This document shows, one piece after another, positions 16,865-27,215 of a stretch of DNA of 64,000 nucleotides (position 1 is the stretch's first letter; every line of letters begins with the position of its first letter). The position numbers and the translations under genes are program-made. Source of the stretch: Agromyces cavernae (GTDB lineage Bacteria > Actinomycetota > Actinomycetes > Actinomycetales > Microbacteriaceae); NCBI RefSeq assembly GCF_021044935.1, contig NZ_JAJNMP010000003.1:186001-250000 (forward strand). The letters are read 5' to 3'. A model generated the notes under the pieces. The model was not told the DNA's origin. It saw only the letters and a program-made list of their open reading frames with translations, and did not search any database.

Positions 16865-17596
16865 CTACGCGAGCGGACGCTGCGTGATCCGGCTGCGCCC
16901 CACAGCCAGCCAGATCCCGGCGATCGTGAGCCACAGCGGCATCAGACCGCCCGGCAATCCCGGGACGCCGCTGACGACCACTGCGCCGAGCGTGCCCACG
17001 GCGGCGAGTCCGCAGAACGCGCCGAGCACCCGCGAGACGTTGCGCTCCACGTACGCCATCCAGGCGAGGCCGCCCGCCGCGACGACCACGCCGAGCCAGG
17101 GCATGTAGGCGCCGAAGTCCGTGAGCATGTAGTAGATGAACAGCCCGTCGGGGCTGTAGTTGTGCGACTCCGGCCCGAGGTAGGTGGCGAGGCCGCCGCG
17201 CCAGCCGTAGCCGAGCACGAGGCCGCCCGCGGTGGCGATGATGCCGCCGCTCACGGCGCGCGCACCGGCGGAGCGGGTGAACTCGCTCTCGATGTTTCGC
17301 CGCCACACTGCCTGGAACACGAGCAGCGCGACGATCGCCACCACGCCGGCGACGTAGCCGTACCGCGCGAGCGTGGGGTCGAGCTCGACCATGTCGGCTG
17401 CGGTCACCCTGTAGAGCTCGCCGTTGGCGATCGCATCGATCTCGCCCTGGGGGCGCAGGTCGGTGATCACGGTACCGATGAAGCCGGCGGTGCCCGCGAG
17501 CGCCGCCCAGAGCGGCCAGGCGCGGAATCGGGTGGGCGTCGTCTCGGGGCTTCCTGCCGGGTGGGCCATGTGCGGGGACTCGGTGCTGGAGGACAT
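16865..17596 (-). CDS. Membrane protein of unknown function
   Basis: A 243-residue protein with six or seven hydrophobic helices (for example WPLWAALAGTAGFIGTVITD, VAGVVAIVALLVFQAVW and LMPLWLTIAGIWLAVGRSRI). A periplasmic loop after the first helix contains 'LRPQGEIDAIANGELYRVTA'. The sequence resembles the DUF4386-type actinobacterial membrane proteins, but I cannot assign it firmly. The ATG at 17596 (MSSSTESPHM) follows a GAAAG site; a start 33 bases upstream is possible. It lies 3' of the response regulator on the same strand, with about 150 bases between, so it may be a target or a late member of that operon. Confidence 0.6.
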   Translation of the reverse strand: MSSSTESPHMAHPAGSPETTPTRFRAWPLWAALAGTAGFIGTVITDLRPQGEIDAIANGELYRVTAADMVELDPTLARYGYVAGVVAIVALLVFQAVWRRNIESEFTRSAGARAVSGGIIATAGGLVLGYGWRGGLATYLGPESHNYSPDGLFIYYMLTDFGAYMPWLGVVVAAGGLAWMAYVERNVSRVLGAFCGLAAVGTLGAVVVSGVPGLPGGLMPLWLTIAGIWLAVGRSRITQRPLA

Positions 17597-17746
17597 GGGT
17601 CTGCTTTCGTTCGTCGGCGGCGCCCTCATGCGGGCGGCGCGCGCCGCGGGGGCGCGGCACTGATCCAGCCTCCGGTGCCCGGTCGTCCGACGGGCAGGTG
17701 TGGATGTCCTCGATCGACCGGGACGTCCGCCCCGACGGCACCGACG

Positions 17747-18418
17747 TCAGGGCGCGGTCGTCGACGCCCCGAAGCCCGCTTCGCGCGCCAGGACGATGAG
17801 CGCACTGCGGTCGTGGGCTCCGAGCTTCGTGATGATGGCGTACACGTAGTTGCGCACGGTCTTGCTCGTCAGCACGAGCGTGCGCGCGATCGAGCCGTTG
17901 TCGAGCCCGCGTGCGACGAGCTCGAGCACATCCGTCTCCCGCTCGGTGAGCTCGGGGAACGGCCGCACGGCCGACTCGGGTGCCGTGCCGCTGAGCACGG
18001 CGACGGCGCGCGCCGCGACCTCCGCCCCGAAGAGCACCTCGCCGTCGGCGACCGCGTGGATGGCCCGCTCGACCTCGCGCGGCGACGCGACCTTGAGCAG
18101 GTACCCGCGCGCTCCCGCGCGCATCGCCGCGAACAGCGAGTGATCGTCGCCGAGCATGGTCAGCACGAGCACCGCGACCGACGGATGTCGCCGCGTGATC
18201 GAGCGCGTCGCGTCGATGCCGGATCCGGTACCGAGGTCGAGGTCCATCAGGACGACGTCGGGGACCCGCGCGTCGACGAGGTCGAGCGCCTCGTCGACCG
18301 TCGCGGCGTCGCCGACGACCTCGACGTGCTCGAGCGTTTCGAGCAGCGAGATGATTCCCCTGCGGAAGAGCGGGTGGTCGTCGACCACGGCGACCGTGAT
18401 CGTGTGCTCCGCGTCCAT
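17747..18418 (-). CDS. NarL/LuxR-family response regulator
   Basis: A 223-residue two-domain regulator. The receiver domain shows 'VAVVDDHPLFRRG', the phospho-acceptor Asp 59 in 'PDVVLMDLDLGTG', and Lys in 'GYLLK'. The C-terminal LuxR helix-turn-helix spans 'LTERETDVLELVARGLDNGS' and 'LVLTSKTVRNYVYAIITKLG'. It is the output of the preceding two histidine-kinase-like genes and starts 37 bases after the intact kinase. GGAG precedes the ATG at 18418; an ATG 15 bases upstream would add MNGAA. Its targets are not visible here. Confidence 0.93.
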   Translation of the reverse strand: MDAEHTITVAVVDDHPLFRRGIISLLETLEHVEVVGDAATVDEALDLVDARVPDVVLMDLDLGTGSGIDATRSITRRHPSVAVLVLTMLGDDHSLFAAMRAGARGYLLKVASPREVERAIHAVADGEVLFGAEVAARAVAVLSGTAPESAVRPFPELTERETDVLELVARGLDNGSIARTLVLTSKTVRNYVYAIITKLGAHDRSALIVLAREAGFGASTTAP

Positions 18419-18455
18419 CGCCGCTCCGTTCATGTGCGTTCCGCGCTCCAGTGTG

Positions 18456-20570
18456 TCACCTCTCGGCGACCGCCCGCCCTGCCCCCGGCTCCTCGGTTGC
18501 CGCCGGTCCCGGCAGCGGCAGGCGCGCGAGAACCGTGGTGCCGGATGCCCCGGACTTGACTTCGAGCGATCCGCGCAGCTCGAACGCACGCTCGCGCATC
18601 GACCGCAGCCCGACGCCCCGCGGCGCGCCGGGTGCGATGCCGGAACCGTCGTCCGCGACCCGCACTTCGAGAGAGCTGTCGTGCGCCACGACATCGACGT
18701 CGATGCGACCGGCGTCGGAATGGCGCACGGCGTTGGCGATGGCCTCTGCGGCGATGAGGTACGCCCCGTCCTGGACGTCGCGCGGCACCGCGTGTCGCGG
18801 CTCGAGGTCGACACGCCGACGGATCTCTCGTCCCGGAGCGTCGAACCGGCCGGCGAGGTCGGCGAGCGCCGCGTCGAGACTCGCGCCCTCGAGCGGCGAC
18901 GGTGTCACCGCATCGGCGAGCGAGCGAACGTCACGGACGCGCCGGGTCAACTCGTCGCCGAGTTCGGCGAGCAGCGACTCCGCCTTGCGGCGGTCGCGAT
19001 CCCCCTCGAGCAGGTTCTCGACGGCGGCGAGGCCGAAGCCGACGCCCGCGAGCGAGGGGCCGATGGCGTCGTGCAGTTCGCGGCGGATTGCCCGGCGCTC
19101 CTCGACACGGCGGGCGATGAGGTCACGGCGGGCCCCCTCGAGCACGAGGTTCGTGTCGATGAGCTGCAGCGCAGCGGCGACGAGGCCTGCGATGTCGGCG
19201 AAGAGCCGCAGCGTGCGGGCGTCGAACCGCTGGCCGTGGCGGGGGTGCATGATCAGCTCGCCGATGCGCCGTCCGTGCGCACGGAGCGGCAGCACCACGG
19301 GCTCGCCGCTCGCGGAGCCGGCGGCTGCGGCGAGCTCGGGGCGCACGACCGAACGCACCTCCACGGCGCCGAGCCGCAGGGCCAGGCGAAGCGCCTCGCA
19401 CACCTGCCGCAGCCCGGCGGACCCGGGTTCGAGCTCTCCGATCCGGTCGCCTAGCCGCTCGAGCAGCACCGCCGGGTCGGCGCCTTCGCCGTAGACCAGC
19501 ACGTCGATGCGCCGTTGGAGCCATGCCCGCACGGGCTGTGCGACGAGCGCGATCAGCACCGGTACCACGAACCACAGGCCGCCAACCGGACCAACAGTGA
19601 AACCGCCAGCGAGCACGGCCGGTAGGAGCGCGACCAGCCCGAGGTAGAGCACCATGCCGCTGATCGTGAGCAGCGACCAGAGCACGATCCTGCTGACGAT
19701 GAGCTCGACCCCCCACAGCCGCTGGCCGAGCACGACGACCAGGATCGCCGCGGGGTAGAGCACCTGACCGAGCATCGGCGCGACCATGCCGAACCAGGTC
19801 GCCCAGGGCGGCACGTCGAGGCCCTCGGGCAGCACGAGCGCGAAGTACGACAGCGTAAGGAAGGCGTGCCCGAGCGTGAGCCAGGCCACCCCGGCGCGGG
19901 ACCCCCGGCCCGACCGCGCCCACCGCACAATGAGTACGCCGAGGGAGAGGAACGCGATGGCGACCCCGACGAACGACAGCGCGGCGTACAGCCCGGGCAC
20001 GATCGCCTGGTAGGCAGGCACGGTGATCGCGAACGGGTTCCGCGGTTCGGGCACGCTCTGCTGGGTGAGGCTCAGCACGAACGCGACGGCCGCGACTACC
20101 ATGGCGATCACGACCACCCCCCGCTGCCATCCGGGCATCGTGCCGCGGCGGATGAGCAGCGGCAACGCCGCCGTCATGAAGGTTCCCGGCACGAAGCCCC
20201 AGCCCGCGGCGAAGGCGAACAGCCCCCAGAGCGGCAGCCCGGGAACCTCGGCGCCGAGCAGACCGTACTGCACGCCGAACGCGGTGACGCCGGAACCCAC
20301 GGCGTGCACGGCGAGGATCACACCGACCGGATGCGGCCGACGTATGAGGATGAGGGCGCTCACCGGTCCGTAGATGAGCGCGACCGTGACGCCGAGGTCA
20401 TCGAACCGGGAGTGCAGCTCGGCCGGAGCGGGCGAGAGGGTGACGCCCGGCAGCGGCTCCTGCGGCAGGCCGAACGACCAGGCGATCAAAAGCGACGCCA
20501 GCGCGAGCGCCCAGGACACCGCCCACACGACCGTGGCTGCGACACGGCGACCGCGCACGTCGCGGCTCAT
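18456..20570 (-). CDS. Membrane sensor histidine kinase (NarL-type, HisKA_3)
   Basis: A 704-residue kinase. About ten hydrophobic helices fill residues 10-350, then comes a GAF-like region (about 365-475), then the HisKA_3 dimerisation helix with the phospho-acceptor His 500 in 'AIRRELHDAIGPSLAG'. The HATPase domain has a full N box ('AAEAIANAVRHS'), G1 ('VADDGSGIAPG') and G2 ('GVGLRSMRER'). The start overlaps the stop of the upstream kinase-like gene by four bases (ATGA), which implies translational coupling. Together with the LuxR-type regulator it forms a two-component system sensing an unknown membrane or envelope signal. Confidence 0.92.
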   Translation of the reverse strand: MSRDVRGRRVAATVVWAVSWALALASLLIAWSFGLPQEPLPGVTLSPAPAELHSRFDDLGVTVALIYGPVSALILIRRPHPVGVILAVHAVGSGVTAFGVQYGLLGAEVPGLPLWGLFAFAAGWGFVPGTFMTAALPLLIRRGTMPGWQRGVVVIAMVVAAVAFVLSLTQQSVPEPRNPFAITVPAYQAIVPGLYAALSFVGVAIAFLSLGVLIVRWARSGRGSRAGVAWLTLGHAFLTLSYFALVLPEGLDVPPWATWFGMVAPMLGQVLYPAAILVVVLGQRLWGVELIVSRIVLWSLLTISGMVLYLGLVALLPAVLAGGFTVGPVGGLWFVVPVLIALVAQPVRAWLQRRIDVLVYGEGADPAVLLERLGDRIGELEPGSAGLRQVCEALRLALRLGAVEVRSVVRPELAAAAGSASGEPVVLPLRAHGRRIGELIMHPRHGQRFDARTLRLFADIAGLVAAALQLIDTNLVLEGARRDLIARRVEERRAIRRELHDAIGPSLAGVGFGLAAVENLLEGDRDRRKAESLLAELGDELTRRVRDVRSLADAVTPSPLEGASLDAALADLAGRFDAPGREIRRRVDLEPRHAVPRDVQDGAYLIAAEAIANAVRHSDAGRIDVDVVAHDSSLEVRVADDGSGIAPGAPRGVGLRSMRERAFELRGSLEVKSGASGTTVLARLPLPGPAATEEPGAGRAVAER

Positions 20571-22555
20571 CGCACGATCACCGCCTCGACGGTGCGGGCG
20601 GGCCCCGAGGAATCCGCTCGCAGCGTCGCGCCGAGTTCGGCGCTGCGGTCCGCGATCGCATGGCGGAGCGACTCGACATCGCGCTCACTTGCCCGATCGA
20701 GGCAGAGCTCGAGCACGGCGGCGTCGTCGCGCAGCCGAACGCCGATCGCCAGGCCCTCGCCGTCGCCCTGAGCGCGAACGTGACGCACCGCCTCTGCGGC
20801 GAGGAGGTACACGGCGAGCTGCGTACGGTCGTCGAGTACGTCCGCCCCGGTGGAGTCCACCGTCACCCGCCGACCGTCGTCGGTCGACCGCTGGGCGAGC
20901 TCACGCAGCGCTGCGTCGAGGTCGCCCTCATCGAGCGCGGCGGGGAACAGCGCACGGGCGAGCCGGCGCACCTCCTCGGCACGTTCGGCAACCTCCCCCC
21001 GGAGCGCCGCGACGGCTGCTCCCGCTCCCGCCGAACCGACCACCACGAGGCGGCGAGCAGCTGCGACGCCGTATCCGAGGCCGGCGAGCGACGGCGCGAG
21101 CTCGTCACGGAGCTCGCGGTGCAGCAGCCGACGCTCCTCATGGCGAACCCCGAGCATGCGTCGGCGGGTTTCGACGACGTCGCAGTTGAGGTCGGCGAGG
21201 AGCACGGCGACGGCGAGGAGGCCGGAGATCTCCTCGAGCACTGGTCGGACCGAGCCGTGCAGCACGCCGTGGTCGCCACCCGTCACCTCGACTGCGCCGA
21301 CGCGGCGGCCGCCCGCGACGAGGTGGACCGTGAGACTCGACGCTCCGGTGGCGCCCACGCGCCTGGCCGCGCCGCTCGCCCCGTCCTGTCCGCCGTCTTC
21401 GCCCGTGATCATGACCGAGTCGAGCGCCCAGGTCGCGCGGAGCGCCTCGGCCAGGCCGCGAAGCCCCTCGCCCGTGTCGGGTGCGTCGGCCAGGTGCTCG
21501 TCCAGCGACTGCAGCAGGTCACGGGCGTCCGCACCGGCCGGAGCGACGATCGCCTCGGTGCGGTGGCGCACGAAGCGGTTGACGGGACGGAACGCGAGCG
21601 CGAGCGCGCCACCGGCGAGAGCACCCGCCGCAGTGTGGTCGAGGCCGAGGAGCATCCCCGTCTCGAGCACCACGAGGAAGAGGCTCACGGCGACGGCGAT
21701 CGCCTGCACCCAGACCGTGGCGGCGAACAGGCGACGGTCGCCGCCCTGCTCGCCGCCGAGCGTGACCGCGAGGATGGCGGTGGGCAGTATGCCGCTCGCG
21801 AGCACGAACAGGGCGTTCGCGAGTGTCATCAGCGGGTCGGGAAGCGCAACGGCGATCGGCAAGTACGAGAGTACGAGCAGCGCGCCGCCGAGGCCGAGCC
21901 AGGCCAGCGCGTCGCGCCGCGGGCCGTGGTCGCGACGCCACTCGTCCGCCAGTTCGATGCTCGCCACGACGAACAGTGCGAGCGGCACGACGAGGGTGAC
22001 GAGCACGATCGGTCCGAGGGGCTCCGGCGTCAGCGCCACGATGGTGGTGACGACGATGTCGACCGCGACCGCCGTGATGCCCAAGGCGAGGCCCGCCCGC
22101 CTGAGGCGCGGCCGCCGCCGCGTGAGGAGCCATGGGAGCACCGCGAGTGCCGCGATCTCGGGAACGCGCGGCCAGAACAGCACCCATCGCAGCGCCTCGG
22201 CGAACTCCGAGCCGTCGATGAGCACCGTCGAGTCGAGTGCGACCAGCAGGGCGAGCCATCCGCTGTTCACGGCCAGCGCGCCGAGGATCACCGCAACCGC
22301 CGAACGCCGCCGGACGAGCATGACCGCCGCGACCGGCGCGTAGACGAGCGCCGTCACGATCACGCGCAACGGTCTCTCCCAGCCCGGTTCACCGGAGGTG
22401 AGGAGTACGGCTGCCACGATCGCGGGCGCCCACGCGAGCACCACGATCGCCACCCCGAGCCGTCGCGGCGCGCGGCCGGCGCGCCCCGGCGCCCGCCACA
22501 CGTCCGCCGTCGCCCGCTCCCCGCGCCCGGCGGAGGAAGAGGTGGAGGCCGTCAT
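20567..22555 (-). CDS. Degenerate (pseudo) sensor histidine kinase
   Basis: A 662-residue paralogue of the next gene, with the same layout: about ten helices, a GAF-like region, then HisKA_3-like and HATPase-like parts. The dimerisation helix aligns well ('EERRLLHRELRDELAPSLAG' against 'EERRAIRRELHDAIGPSLAG'), but the phospho-acceptor His is Arg 483. The ATP domain keeps its start ('VYLLAAEAVRHV') yet lacks the N-box Asn and any DxGxG or GxGL motif. It should bind neither ATP nor phosphate. The ATGA overlap with the intact kinase suggests a fixed partnership, perhaps a regulatory heterodimer. It is the first gene of the signalling operon. Confidence 0.85.
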   Translation of the reverse strand: MTASTSSSAGRGERATADVWRAPGRAGRAPRRLGVAIVVLAWAPAIVAAVLLTSGEPGWERPLRVIVTALVYAPVAAVMLVRRRSAVAVILGALAVNSGWLALLVALDSTVLIDGSEFAEALRWVLFWPRVPEIAALAVLPWLLTRRRPRLRRAGLALGITAVAVDIVVTTIVALTPEPLGPIVLVTLVVPLALFVVASIELADEWRRDHGPRRDALAWLGLGGALLVLSYLPIAVALPDPLMTLANALFVLASGILPTAILAVTLGGEQGGDRRLFAATVWVQAIAVAVSLFLVVLETGMLLGLDHTAAGALAGGALALAFRPVNRFVRHRTEAIVAPAGADARDLLQSLDEHLADAPDTGEGLRGLAEALRATWALDSVMITGEDGGQDGASGAARRVGATGASSLTVHLVAGGRRVGAVEVTGGDHGVLHGSVRPVLEEISGLLAVAVLLADLNCDVVETRRRMLGVRHEERRLLHRELRDELAPSLAGLGYGVAAARRLVVVGSAGAGAAVAALRGEVAERAEEVRRLARALFPAALDEGDLDAALRELAQRSTDDGRRVTVDSTGADVLDDRTQLAVYLLAAEAVRHVRAQGDGEGLAIGVRLRDDAAVLELCLDRASERDVESLRHAIADRSAELGATLRADSSGPARTVEAVIVR

Positions 22556-22652: not shown

Positions 22653-23978
22653 TCAGCGACCGAGGCGGTAGAACACGAACGGGATCGCCGACACCAGGCA
22701 GCTGGCGGCGGGTACGAGCGTGAGCGATGCGAAGACGGTCCACTGCATCTCGGGGGTCACTGTGACACCGGCCTCGTAGCCGGCGAGCCCGATGAATATG
22801 CCGAAGACGAGCACCGCCAAGGCGGCCATGGTCTGGGATACGAAGGTGAGGGTCGAGAACGAGATGCCGTCGTTGCGCACCCCGGTGCGGCGCTCGATGT
22901 CGTCCACGGCGTCGGCGATCATCGTCGCCTGCACGACGAGGAAGATGCCGAGAGTCATCCCGGTGAGGAAGATGAATACCAGCAGCACGGCGATGTTCTC
23001 GAACCCGGCGAAGAACATCGCCAAGAACAGCGCCGCGCCGATCACCGAGCTGCCGATCGCGAGAATCTTCGCCGACATGCCCTTGAGCAGCAGCGGCGTG
23101 AGGAACGACGCGAGCACCATGCCGATGATGATCGCTGCGCCGATGAGGGTGAACGCGCCCTCGCTGTCGTAGGCGATGACGACGAACACCGCGCCGCCGG
23201 CCTGCACGATGAAGCGGCCGAAGCCGAGCACCGACCCGATCAGCACCATGAGCAGCGGTGTGTTTCGCAGCAGTGTGCCGAACAGCTGCCGGAACGTGAG
23301 GCGATACTGCACTCCGGGGCTGTACCGCTCGCGCGTGTTGGTGAACGCCAGCAAGAAGAGGCCCATGCCCAGGAACGAGACGACGCCCACCGCCAGCGAC
23401 CATCCGGTGCCGGTGGTCTGGTCGCCCGGGCTGAGCAGGAGCGCGAGCCACGGCATCCCGAGCGTCGCCAGCCCGAGCGCGATCCCGCCGTACGCGCGCA
23501 CGTTGGAGATCACGCGCATGCGGTAGTCGGATTCGGAGAACGCCGAGCCGATGAGCCCCCAGAACGGCACATCGCACACCGTGTAGGCGACGCCCCACAA
23601 GACGTAGCAGACGGCGAAGAAGACGAGCTTGCCCGTCTCAGACACATCCGGCACGGTGAACAGCAGCGTCGACAGCACCGCGACCGGCACGGCGGAGAAG
23701 AGGATGTACGGCCGCAGCTTTCCCCACCGCGTGCGGGTCATATCGACGAGACTGCCCATCACCGGGTCGTTGATCGCGTCGAAGATCTTCGCGGCCGTGA
23801 TCACGGCGGTGACCACCGCCATGCCCTGGGTGCTGATGCGGGCGTACTGCAACAGGTACAGGAGGATGAACGTCGTGACCGTCGTGAGAACGAGGTTCTG
23901 GCCGAACCCGGCCACGACGATCGAAATCCGCTGCGTGCGGCGGCTGGGGATCCGCGCTTCGGCGGCGCCGACGCTCAC
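22653..23978 (-). CDS. GPH-family sugar:cation symporter
   Basis: A 441-residue transporter of the glycoside-pentoside-hexuronide:cation symporter family (MelB-like), with 12 hydrophobic helices. Family marks include 'YLLQYARISTQGMAVVTAV', 'KIFDAINDPVMGSLVDMTRT' with the conserved Asp and Asn-Asp-Pro, 'GKLRPYIL' and 'DVPFWGL'. It starts inside the end of the GH38 gene (ATGA overlap), so it is translated with the alpha-mannosidase and probably imports mannosides or oligomannose fragments. About 97 bases separate it from the downstream kinase operon on the same strand. Confidence 0.92.
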   Translation of the reverse strand: MSVGAAEARIPSRRTQRISIVVAGFGQNLVLTTVTTFILLYLLQYARISTQGMAVVTAVITAAKIFDAINDPVMGSLVDMTRTRWGKLRPYILFSAVPVAVLSTLLFTVPDVSETGKLVFFAVCYVLWGVAYTVCDVPFWGLIGSAFSESDYRMRVISNVRAYGGIALGLATLGMPWLALLLSPGDQTTGTGWSLAVGVVSFLGMGLFLLAFTNTRERYSPGVQYRLTFRQLFGTLLRNTPLLMVLIGSVLGFGRFIVQAGGAVFVVIAYDSEGAFTLIGAAIIIGMVLASFLTPLLLKGMSAKILAIGSSVIGAALFLAMFFAGFENIAVLLVFIFLTGMTLGIFLVVQATMIADAVDDIERRTGVRNDGISFSTLTFVSQTMAALAVLVFGIFIGLAGYEAGVTVTPEMQWTVFASLTLVPAASCLVSAIPFVFYRLGR

Positions 23979-26944
23979 GGGCGTTCCAGAAGGATCGTCT
24001 TGATCTCGAACGGGCGGAAGCTCAGGTGCGCGAGATCCGCCGAACCGAGACGTCGTTCGATGAGGTCGGTCGCGAGGGCTCGCGCGTGGGGGATGCTGGT
24101 GCGCAACGCCGTCTGAGTCGGCCGCCCGAGGCTCTCATACAGCCGCACGACCACGCCCGAGCCGTCCTCGGCGGGCTTGACGGTCTCGACGACCACCCCC
24201 GGGTCGTCGGCCGAAACGGCGCTGTCGAACACCACGCCGTCGGCGAGCAGCAGCGGATTGTTCAGGCGGTAGGCCTCGCGCACGACGGCGGCCAGATCGT
24301 CTGGCGCGAAAGGCATGAACGCGTACGTGAACTCGTGTGTGCCCCGGTCGGCGGTCTTGTCGGGGAAGGTCGGCGCCCGCAGCAGGTTGAGGCTGACGAG
24401 CCCGTTCTTCGCCCGATGCCCGTACTTGGAATCGTTGAGCAGGGCGAACCCACCGGCATCCCCTCTGTCATCCGGCCCACCGGCATCCCACCCACCGTCA
24501 TTCGACACGGTCGCGATCCACTTGTGTGCGCAGATCTCGAACTGCGCCTTCTCCACGGAGTCGCGCTCGGTCGTGGGGCGTGCGATGTGCCCGAACTGGA
24601 TTTCGCACAGCGCCTCGGCGCCGTAGTGACGCGGGCGGAACTCGGCACGCAGCATCCTGTGTCTCTCACGCCAGTCGACGTGCGTCTCGAACCGGATGAC
24701 GGGGCTGCCCGCCTCGAGCACGACGCGCTGATGCACGGTGACCTTCGGCGCACGGTACTCGTGGTGGCGGATGACGAGGGGCCCGTCGATCGACGTGCGG
24801 TGGGAGGTGACAGCCAGCACCTGCGGTTTCGTGTCGACGTAACCGGGGTCGATGTCCCACGCGTCCCACGGGAACTGGTACGGGTCCTTGTACACCGCGA
24901 GGCGGTTGAAACCTCCGGCCACATGCTCGGTGCCTACGGCGTCGACGCACGAAACGAGCTCGCCGCTGGGGTCGAAGCGCACCGTGAGCAGTCCGTTCGA
25001 GATCGTGTCGGCGGTGTCCGACAGTTCCGAGAACGAGCCGACCGGCTGCAGTCGGGAGGCCGCATACGGGTCGACGTCGGCCGACCACCACCGACCGCCG
25101 ACGCGGAGGTGGTCGCGCCGGGGGAAGGAGGTGAGGTTGATCGCCGACGCGCCGGTATCGCCGCGGGGCAGCTCGCCCGTCAGTCGCGCACCGATGCGGT
25201 CGAGAGCCGTCTCGATGGCGGTGTACGACTCGCGCGCTTCGCGGTTGACGCGCTCGATCGACGAGCCGGTGATGGTGTCGTGGAACTGGTTCAGCAGCAC
25301 GTCGCGCCACAGCGGCCCGAGTTCGACGTTCACGTCAGCGCCCGCCAGCGCGGCGAGCGCCTCGACCTCATGCAGCTTGCGTTCGGCGATGCGGTTGTGC
25401 CGCTTCGTGTGCCCGATCGTGGTGTACGTGCCCTGGTGCGTTTCCAGGTAGAGCTCGCCGGAGTGTCGCTGGGGGATGTCGCGGTGCTCGAGAGCTCGGA
25501 AGAAGGCGGATGCCGTGGACTTCTCCACCTTCGGAAGTCCACGCAACGATCCCTCGCGCCGGAGCAGTTCGTGGTGCACCTCGCCAGGTCCGCCCCCGCC
25601 GTCGCCGGCGCCGTACACCAGTAGTGCCGTCCCCAGGTCGCGCTCGGGGTACTGGTCGATGCCCTTGAGCAGGCCGTCGGCCGCGGCACGGCTGTTGTAG
25701 TCACCTTCGGGCGGCATATGCACGAGCACCGAAGACCCGTCGATGCCCTCCCAGTGGAACGTGCGGTGCGGGAACACGTTGACGCGGTTCCACGACAGCT
25801 TGATGGTCTGGAACCAGTCCATGCCGCAGCCGCGAAGGATCTGCGGGAGGTTGCCGCTGTAGCCGAAGGTGTCGGGCAGCCAGCATAGCCGCAGGTCGTC
25901 GTCGTCGAGCCCGAACTCCTCCTTCAGGAATCTTCTGCCGACCAGAGCCTGGCGGATCAGCGATTCCCCGCTGGGCAGATTCGTGTCGGGTTCCACCCAG
26001 AACGAGCCCTGCAGTTCGATGCGGCCCTCCGCCACGGCATCCTTCACCGGCTCGAACAGTTCAGGATGACGCTCCTTCGTCCACTGCAGCTGCTGCGGCT
26101 GGCTCGTCCCGTAGATGAAGTCGTCGTAACGGTCGATTGAGTCCAGCGCCTTGACGAACGTGCGCGCGGCCTTGCGCTTGGTCTCGCGGATGGGCCAAAC
26201 CCACGCCATGTCGAGGTGGCCGTGACCGACGGCGCTGTACGTGAACGCACTCGTGGAGGGTTGCGAGAGCTCGTCCGCGAGCCGGACGCGGGCGGCTCGG
26301 GTGTCTCCGTTGGCGAACCGGGAGAACGCTTCGCCGAGCGCTGCGTGCAGGTCGGCCGCGAGCCGAGAATCACCGGTCGACTCGGCCAGGGCGAACAGCG
26401 CGAGGTAGTCGTAGTAGAGCCCGAATGCGTCGTCGTCGCGCCTGGCGAGGTGCGCGCCGAAGTACACGCCGCGCCCGACTCCGAGGAACAGGAAGCCGTT
26501 GAACGCGACGTCGGCGTACAGGTCCACCCGGCCGCTCGACAGGTCAGCGTGGGGAACCGGCCGGAACCTTCCGCCGCTGTGCGGCAGATCGCCCTGGATC
26601 CACACCGTGCTGATCGAGTCGAGCATCGTTCCGTCGGACGAGTAGACGAGTCCTTCGCCGCGGATGCCGAGCATGACGACGGGATCTGCAGTTGCCGCCG
26701 GCACGTCTCCCGTGATGTGCAGCCACGCGCATTCGAGCGTCTGGCCGAAGCGGGCGCCGGCGCGGATCGGTTCGAATGCGCCATGGTCGAGTTCGGCGAA
26801 CCGGATCGGCTCTCGGGAGCGTACGACCTCGGCGCGCAGGCCAACGATTCTGCGGTAGACGCGGCTGCGAATCGCGCGCAGTCGCCGGCCATGGAACGGA
26901 TGCTTGTCGACCAGCCCCGGCAACGTCGCCAACACCCCGAGCAT
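23975..26944 (-). CDS. GH38 alpha-mannosidase
   Basis: A 989-residue glycoside hydrolase of family 38. The zinc-binding 'HGHLDMAWVWPIRET' lies at residues 241-255 (His 241, Asp 245) and the nucleophile Asp 358 in 'WLPDTFGYSGNLPQI'. A further zinc-ligand His is in 'NQFHDTITGSS'. The middle and C-terminal beta domains are full length. No signal peptide is visible, so it should act in the cytosol on imported mannosides, fitting the coupled GPH transporter. The ATG at 26944 (MLGVLATL) has GGGAGG 8 bases upstream. A longer frame running upstream through the clpC ghost was rejected because it is arginine/serine-rich and antisense-like. Confidence 0.95.
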   Translation of the reverse strand: MLGVLATLPGLVDKHPFHGRRLRAIRSRVYRRIVGLRAEVVRSREPIRFAELDHGAFEPIRAGARFGQTLECAWLHITGDVPAATADPVVMLGIRGEGLVYSSDGTMLDSISTVWIQGDLPHSGGRFRPVPHADLSSGRVDLYADVAFNGFLFLGVGRGVYFGAHLARRDDDAFGLYYDYLALFALAESTGDSRLAADLHAALGEAFSRFANGDTRAARVRLADELSQPSTSAFTYSAVGHGHLDMAWVWPIRETKRKAARTFVKALDSIDRYDDFIYGTSQPQQLQWTKERHPELFEPVKDAVAEGRIELQGSFWVEPDTNLPSGESLIRQALVGRRFLKEEFGLDDDDLRLCWLPDTFGYSGNLPQILRGCGMDWFQTIKLSWNRVNVFPHRTFHWEGIDGSSVLVHMPPEGDYNSRAAADGLLKGIDQYPERDLGTALLVYGAGDGGGGPGEVHHELLRREGSLRGLPKVEKSTASAFFRALEHRDIPQRHSGELYLETHQGTYTTIGHTKRHNRIAERKLHEVEALAALAGADVNVELGPLWRDVLLNQFHDTITGSSIERVNREARESYTAIETALDRIGARLTGELPRGDTGASAINLTSFPRRDHLRVGGRWWSADVDPYAASRLQPVGSFSELSDTADTISNGLLTVRFDPSGELVSCVDAVGTEHVAGGFNRLAVYKDPYQFPWDAWDIDPGYVDTKPQVLAVTSHRTSIDGPLVIRHHEYRAPKVTVHQRVVLEAGSPVIRFETHVDWRERHRMLRAEFRPRHYGAEALCEIQFGHIARPTTERDSVEKAQFEICAHKWIATVSNDGGWDAGGPDDRGDAGGFALLNDSKYGHRAKNGLVSLNLLRAPTFPDKTADRGTHEFTYAFMPFAPDDLAAVVREAYRLNNPLLLADGVVFDSAVSADDPGVVVETVKPAEDGSGVVVRLYESLGRPTQTALRTSIPHARALATDLIERRLGSADLAHLSFRPFEIKTILLERP

Positions 26945-27026
26945 CCGACCTCCCGCCGACGCGCGGCGCCCCTTTGCCGCCACGACCAGCCTATGTGTTG
27001 ACCATTGACGGAGACGGGCGATTCCG

Positions 27027-27215
27027 TCACCTCGAAGGCGACCTCGCGTGCCGCAAGGCGAGCGGGGATGCCCCGAGCATGAGTCGCACGATCTGCTCGA
27101 GCTGCGACTGGTCGAGCTTCTGGAACAGCACGATCTCATCGATGCGGCCCAGGAACGCGGGGCGCCGGCGCATCGCCTCACGCACCTTGCCCATGACGCG
27201 GTGCGCACGAGTCAC
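27027..27215 (-). pseudogene. Ghost of an internal Clp ATPase segment
   Basis: The minus strand encodes '[20 protein letters not shown]' followed by '[20 protein letters not shown]' and LGAS. This matches the second AAA+ module of the intact Clp ATPase at about 30885-31015 ([20 protein letters not shown]...LGAS). Reading then shifts frame, though the DNA similarity continues to about 27024. Both flanks are unrelated. This is a second, internal clpC fragment, distinct from the C-terminal ghost at 11296-11391. It lies between the GH38 promoter region and a divergent membrane-protein gene. Confidence 0.88.

Follow-up and report, generated by a model that had tools for sequence, protein, structure and literature searches.

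A conserved pair of degenerate and intact histidine kinases in Agromyces cavernae and its relatives

What does a histidine kinase that has lost its catalytic residues do when its gene lies directly ahead of that of an intact one? The question is raised by a locus of Agromyces cavernae (assembly GCF_021044935.1, contig NZ_JAJNMP010000003.1); the window referred to below is the whole 64,000-nucleotide stretch that was analysed, positions 186,001 to 250,000 of that contig. The locus encodes the degenerate kinase HK1, the intact kinase HK2, and a response regulator (RR). Comparison of related genomes confirms the dead-plus-live kinase pair as real, as conserved across genera, and as adjacent genes that occur together in the sequences compared. 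On balance, the sequence evidence leans towards a heterodimer in which HK1 would be the non-catalytic sensor subunit and HK2 the catalytic subunit, in the manner of FasC and FasB from group A Streptococcus.

Catalytic state and predicted fold of HK1

HK2 displays the features expected of an active kinase of the HisKA_3 (DesK/NarX) type, with the phospho-acceptor His500 and N, G1, and G2 boxes reading ANAVRH, DDGSG, and GVGL; its Pfam matches score 33.6 bits for HisKA_3 (cut-off 24) and 44.3 bits for HATPase_c. HK1, which is 30% identical to HK2 over 662 alignment columns, does not qualify as an active kinase, having neither the acceptor His nor the N-box Asn, the G1 Asp (DxGxG), or the G2 GxG; its HisKA_3 match of 24 bits stands right at the cut-off, and no HATPase_c match is found by Pfam at E ≤ 1. 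When the two proteins are aligned, His500 of HK2 shares its column with Arg483 of HK1 (LLHRELRDELAPSL against AIRRELHDAIGPSL), the N-box stretch AEAIANAVRHS of HK2 faces AEAVRHVRAQG, the G1 stretch VADDGSGI faces LCLDRASE, and GVGL is absent from HK1; another His, H479, precedes the acceptor position by one helical turn. An earlier note, made from the window sequence alone, had reported both the replacement of the acceptor His by Arg and the loss of the N and G boxes, and both are borne out for the window protein. Its description of a fused pair does not hold, as HK1 and HK2 are two separate genes which overlap by the ATGA that it correctly named. Genome-wide, HK1 is the sole one of 24 HisKA_3 matches to lack both the His and the N-box Asn on the authors' reading; elsewhere in the genome, outside the window, two adjacent HisKA_3 kinases with intact motifs (HDGIQQ) lie about 2.1 kb apart (contig C4, 282144-284498).

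The AlphaFold2 model of HK1 (15-row alignment) has a mean pLDDT (predicted local distance difference test) of 81.8. In it, residues 538-662 match the catalytic ATP-binding (CA) domain of VraS (4gt8; Z 13.5, 3.0 Å, 121 residues aligned), and residues 461-662 compared with whole-length DesK give a root-mean-square deviation of 8-16 Å, since the domains are set differently and agree only separately. Because the domains of the model find these matches and the motifs are lost, HK1 is predicted to be a histidine pseudokinase by fold, with the kinase architecture kept and the catalytic residues gone. A GAF-like region had also been noted earlier: by sequence no GAF family is found in HK1 at E ≤ 1, and in the model residues 343-459 match solved GAF domains (e.g. 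3ci6; Z 11.3, 3.1 Å over 114 residues), so that the region stands as a feature of the predicted structure. Hydropathy plots give 9-12 segments per HK1 and 8-11 per full-length HK2, though some of these, located within or past the linker, do not represent membrane helices. Residues 53-278 give a seven-helix match to G-protein-coupled receptors and microbial rhodopsins (Z about 11); by the comparison tool's own guidance helical bundles can reach such values, so the match may reflect no more than a common arrangement of helices, and no such relationship is claimed.

Distribution of the pair and its shared lesion

The pair was found in 12 genomes, which is a lower bound as more pairs may exist: those of the present strain, Agromyces sp. 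H66 (G347), G309, G341, Herbiconiux moechotypicola (G093), Microbacteriaceae bin RM56_bin.064 (G023), Protaetiibacter mangrovi (G228), Micrococcales bacterium 72-143 (G300), G180, G299, Aeromicrobium sp. PE09-221, and Leucobacter ruminantium A2. A search of 299 genomes of the family with HK1 matched 95, mostly through other kinases, and among the regions fetched the pair is present in at least five (the present strain, G093, G180, G228, and G023); the genus search adds G309, G347, and G341 (4 of 60 genomes, the present one included), and four of the nine genomes in the genus of G180 carry the pair, adding G300 and G299. These counts rest on 60 regions fetched out of the many matches from the family, genus, and order searches, in which scoring was confined to a few best candidates per genome (three or four, for instance, at the family and order levels), so that a weak copy or a third one can be missed. 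A scan of related loci with the single HK1 query found no relative in 90 candidate stretches; with the HK1 alignment, at least seven loci were recovered from 480 stretches matching one short pattern, five of the seven being already found and the scan being biased to members with the LDxGD motif, and it contributed Aeromicrobium sp. PE09-221 and L. ruminantium A2. At the level of the order (396 genomes), the 25 fetched loci of other families (L101-L125, some of which serve as tree outgroup) all keep the His and the N-box Asn, and no further dead kinase was found among them.

Profile searches with the HK2 alignment, limited to the top 3, 19, or 4 candidates of each genome, recover HK2 orthologues at 550-1133 bits in exactly the genomes that hold HK1 (5/299 in the family and 4/60 in the genus); the next match besides HK1 itself scores 280 bits in the family search and 286 bits in the genus search. 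Neither HK1 nor HK2 was found without its partner in the samples searched. In G299 both kinases are frameshifted (single-contig assembly, 89% completeness); this genome is therefore excluded from the overlap, tree, substitution, and distance counts below and included for residue states. The gene order and the 4-bp overlap of HK1 and HK2 are kept in 11/11 usable pairs, and an RR homologue lies downstream in all of these loci; in Herbiconiux it is separated from HK2 by two genes, one for a trypsin/PDZ protease and one on the opposite strand (L138, 8202-10701). Confinement of the pair to this strain, which the earlier note had named as one outcome that would tell against its proposal, is thus not what is seen across several genera. 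The pair was not found described in the literature, as covered by open-licence titles and the starts of abstracts.

In a maximum-likelihood tree the HK2 clade (11 rows, support 100/99) stands beside the HK1 clade (11 rows, 82/60), intact kinases from other families of the order fall outside both, and each clade divides into the same two genome groups. A first tree omitted 19 of 85 rows as redundant or as short unrelated kinases, and a second used 16 outgroup rows. HK1 and HK2 look like sister clades derived from one tandem duplication.

The defect that the HK1 proteins share is that of the ATP-binding domain, and not the exchange of His for Arg. In 12/12 HK1 proteins there is no N-box Asn, no G1 Asp, and no second Gly in the G2 box; all three residues are retained in 12/12 HK2 proteins (11 complete and one fragment), which also all keep the phospho-acceptor His; four clade-II HK1s, counting that of G299, retain the remnant VDGRG of the G1 box. 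The acceptor column of HK1 is more varied: it holds Arg in the window protein and in Aeromicrobium, Ala in G309, Gln in Herbiconiux, Ser in G023, Glu in Protaetiibacter, Asp in G180, G300, and G299, and His in Agromyces sp. H66, G341, and Leucobacter. The His is accordingly absent from 9/12 and kept in 3/12, and a conserved His-to-Arg change, which the earlier note suggested looking for in homologues, has to be given up as a signature with Arg in 2/12. On the tree of 11 pairs the acceptor column requires a minimum of four changes, some inner forks of clade I that affect this minimum being weak (84/30, 89/66), and the dead ATP domain requires one; because of this difference the ATP domain probably died first, after which the His would have been free to drift.

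The earlier note had also considered an alternative His in dead homologues as evidence against its reading, and this is found in part: besides the three canonical residues, the His one turn upstream is present in 6/7 clade-I HK1s and in 0/4 clade-II HK1s examined. Such residues allow HK1 to be pictured as a phospho-acceptor subunit, as proposed for FasC, whose His would be phosphorylated in trans by the ATP domain of HK2. The canonical His of Agromyces sp. H66, G341, and Leucobacter would fit, as would the upstream His (H479 in the window) and the HDN kept beside a dead CA domain in a second pair lineage described below (G273, G068). However, neither His is present in Aeromicrobium or in the four clade-II HK1s examined, and none of the 11 HK2s examined has lost its own His; an acceptor role for HK1 is very improbable.

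A proposed division of labour between the two kinases

Ratios of nonsynonymous to synonymous substitution (dN/dS) in HK1 amount to 0.05-0.23 for the first helix (alpha1) of the dimerisation and histidine phosphotransfer (DHp) domain in six comparisons, to less than 0.65 for the linker and sensor, and to 0.77-1.01 for the CA domain in three Agromyces comparisons, where the CA domain of HK2 gives 0.45-0.62; these NG86 values are used as ranks only, as dS (0.33-1.04) approaches saturation, the DNA is GC-rich, and DHp alpha1 comprises only 44 codons. The first dimerisation helix of HK1 is under purifying selection, and in Agromyces the ATP domain of HK1 drifts. A functionless duplicate in decay would explain the CA ratio near 1 in Agromyces and the patchy distribution of the pair, but decay is the hardest account to credit when the HK1 frame is open in 11/12 genomes, when alpha1, linker, and sensor are constrained as above, and when co-occurrence and gene order are held across genera.

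The DHp domain is the best conserved part of HK1 and is the usual RR-binding surface of histidine kinases, which could instead point to a role directed at the RR, with HK1 as a dedicated phosphatase or as a docking or sequestering partner. In HisKA_3 kinases the His is dispensable for phosphatase activity (NarX), and the key Gln of the reaction lies five residues after it (PMC5231405). This position is Pro in 11/11 HK1 and 11/11 HK2 proteins examined, against Gln in DesK, and the motif makes a phosphatase of the HisKA_3 type less likely; outgroup kinases also have Pro here by eye, so the family may use another residue and the motif test is not final. An RR-directed role of either kind is considered improbable.

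The two copies also differ in what they have lost. Compared within each genome, HK1 and HK2 agree best over DHp alpha1, with a mean identity of 43%, and least over CA, with 24%. Across DHp alpha2 and the linker, the motif LLPPxLDELGL, or a near variant of it, is present in outgroup and single relatives; HK1 retains it as LLPxxLDxGD or in similar form, and HK2 has lost it. The two have thus decayed reciprocally, each losing different parts.

The HK2 protein of P. mangrovi (L039, 8672-9907) carries this separation further. It begins at the same ATGA and has its catalytic motifs intact, but is 411 aa long: against the neighbouring G300 its gene is short of a net 849 bp (283 codons), deleted cleanly and in frame, and the protein is left with three hydrophobic segments, one of them in the linker; HK1 is full length with a full sensor. 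The lost part of the HK2 sensor has no match elsewhere in the P. mangrovi genome except HK1 itself. In this species HK1 alone can supply the full sensor. In clade B, a separate lineage of pairs (G273 and G068), the first kinase is short and keeps its His (HDN) while the N and G boxes are lost; the second is full length and live, the regulator follows, and the two genes overlap by 11 bp (L043, 6353-9662; L045, 7287-10641). One full sensor per pair seems to suffice, on either subunit. A broader view, put forward tentatively and as possible rather than probable, is that tandem duplication gave rise by reciprocal loss to an obligate heterodimeric sensor kinase whose split is nearly complete in Protaetiibacter; clade B would be an independent case in which the live subunit bears the full sensor, and asymmetric kinase dimers may thus recur in actinobacteria.

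The main rival to a sensor subunit is a restraining one, similar to RetS, whereby HK1 would titrate HK2 into autokinase-dead heterodimers, the HK2 homodimer would be the active form, and a signal to HK1 would lift the inhibition. The conserved DHp interface and the precedent of RetS:GacS (PMC12189002) agree with this, as does the loss of the His from 9/12 HK1s, since with phosphorylation in trans the heterodimer would be dead. Against it, an HK2 homodimer in Protaetiibacter would have no full sensor, the three HK1s that keep the His are unexpected if loss of the His is the mechanism, and decay of the alpha2 motif in HK2 is not predicted by mere restraint; restraint is rated unlikely, though far less so than the other alternatives.

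In the favoured arrangement, one tandem duplication would have distributed the tasks of a single sensor kinase over HK1 and HK2, which would dimerise via their DHp helices. HK1 would contribute the membrane sensor module and a DHp domain with the ancestral alpha2/linker motif, and no ATP-binding or phosphotransfer chemistry; HK2 would contribute the ATP-binding domain and His500, from which phosphate would pass on to the LuxR-type regulator. Retaining sensor and DHp without catalytic chemistry, beside a catalytic HK2, HK1 would therefore act as a signal-sensing allosteric subunit that sets HK2 activity. The heterodimer of a dead and a live subunit suggested by the earlier note is supported indirectly, by the adjacent genes, their co-occurrence, the matching trees, the constrained dimerisation helix, and the relative in which most sensor helices are missing from the live kinase; as to whether the dead subunit "senses or restrains", the Protaetiibacter deletion favours the former.

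Several observations weigh against this reading. The support for HK1 monophyly is only moderate, HK1 evolves fast, the pair is rare (5/299), and of the four genomes that carry the pair in the genus of P. mangrovi a single one shows the sensor deletion. Pairwise distances across 8 of the 11 genomes, those with a delimited RR, correlate at 0.96 for HK1-HK2, 0.93 for HK1-RR, and 0.92 for HK2-RR; the first value barely exceeds those involving the RR, so that it is co-inheritance of the operon that is shown, and not a particular tie between the kinases. Constraint on the CA domain of HK1 persists in the G180/Protaetiibacter group (dN/dS 0.17-0.23), which together with the VDGRG remnant may mean that the domain retains a role there. 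DesK phosphorylates in trans; if the kinases of this family do so as well, a heterodimer with a His-less HK1 could not autophosphorylate and HK1 would restrain HK2. The three HK1s that keep the His could themselves be trans-phosphorylated, a different route for the phosphate.

Known systems offer partial parallels. RetS and GacS are not known to be a tandem duplicate pair, DivL and CckA are not known to be operon paralogues and belong to a different kinase family, and AbrC3 of Streptomyces coelicolor is a NarL/LuxR-type regulator. The closest precedent is FasBCA of group A Streptococcus, a likeness in presumed function, in which one locus contains two sensor-kinase genes and one regulator; FasC is a proposed pseudokinase with a dispensable kinase domain and an N-terminal half proposed as sensor, FasB supplies the kinase activity and functions without its membrane part, and a FasB/FasC heterodimer is reported by two-hybrid (PMC12675982). 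FasC, however, keeps a required H246, whereas 9/12 HK1s, that of the window included, have no acceptor His, and FasA is ComE-like where the RR of the present locus is of the NarL/LuxR type. AbrC1/AbrC2/AbrC3 is likewise an atypical actinobacterial system with two kinases, but both are reported to autophosphorylate at defined His residues (H214, H270) and neither is described there as degenerate (PMC4428217). RetS and GacS of Pseudomonas aeruginosa are sensor kinases that heterodimerise, one controlling autophosphorylation of the other, however they are hybrid kinases and RetS also siphons and removes phosphate (PMC12189002). In Caulobacter the inactive pseudohistidine kinase DivL switches the live kinase CckA, though in a manner tied to cell-pole localisation (PMC12189002). 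A ChrS pseudokinase from evolved Corynebacterium glutamicum has its CA domain destroyed, does not need its His, and boosts signalling by the paralogue HrrS; it differs in that it arose by laboratory mutation and that the paralogous kinases belong to two separate systems, and two-hybrid gave no heterodimer for the truncated form (PMC9491836).

Sensing seems here to be split from catalysis over two genes, among homologues with or without the acceptor His and with one live kinase that has lost most of its sensor. Histidine kinases are usually viewed as homodimers, and whether one or two subunits sense and whether catalysis runs in cis or in trans is open in most cases; with this pair both could be put to a direct test, no engineered heterodimer being needed. 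The pair is also a warning that a HisKA_3 match, taken by itself, leads pseudokinases to be annotated as kinases.

Features of the locus and neighbouring genes

The genes and sites of the locus are collected in Table 1, which includes the LuxR regulator that the earlier note rightly saw as completing the set.

Table 1. Features of the kinase locus, in window coordinates.
Feature	Position	Strand	Basis
HK1, degenerate (pseudo) histidine kinase, 662 aa; membrane helices, GAF-like linker, DHp, dead CA	20567..22555	-	Alignment, Pfam, model
Arg483 codon of HK1, column of the phospho-acceptor His	21107..21109	-	Alignment to HK2 and relatives
HK1 stretch matching the N-box (EAVRHVRAQG), without Asn	20765..20794	-	Alignment
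ATGA overlap, HK1 stop / HK2 start	20567..20570	-	Sequence
HK2, intact HisKA_3 histidine kinase, 704 aa; His500, Asn613, Asp640-Asp641-Gly642, GVGL	18456..20570	-	Pfam, alignment
RR, NarL/LuxR-type response regulator	17747..18433	-	Response_reg 83.4 bits, GerE 56 bits; downstream homologue in relatives
Fourth gene, multi-helix membrane protein of 254 aa, after the RR	16865..17629	-	No Pfam or NCBIfam match

Directly upstream of HK1 (22653-27208, minus strand) lie a gene for an MFS_2 sugar transporter and, overlapping it by 4 bp, one for a 1077-aa protein with the look of a glycoside hydrolase by eye; no counterpart of these genes was matched in the related loci compared. In 7/7 clade-I loci the RR is followed by the gene for the 254-aa membrane protein, a possible operon member or target; two further copies of the protein are likewise without a Pfam match. 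A family of large proteins, defined as a BLAST cluster, is encoded downstream in the four clade-II loci and further off in Aeromicrobium, Leucobacter, and G341; immunoglobulin-like (Ig-like) repeats occur in the five scanned. Both the 254-aa protein and these large proteins are candidate targets. Large secreted surface proteins with Ig-like repeats lie downstream of the operon at L038 (11964-16470), L142 (12698-14965), L137 (12988-15900), and L098 (2644-5880); by eye, both from G180 terminate in sorting tails of the LATTG/LAQTG kind, and the one scanned matches an NCBIfam LAVTG domain below threshold.

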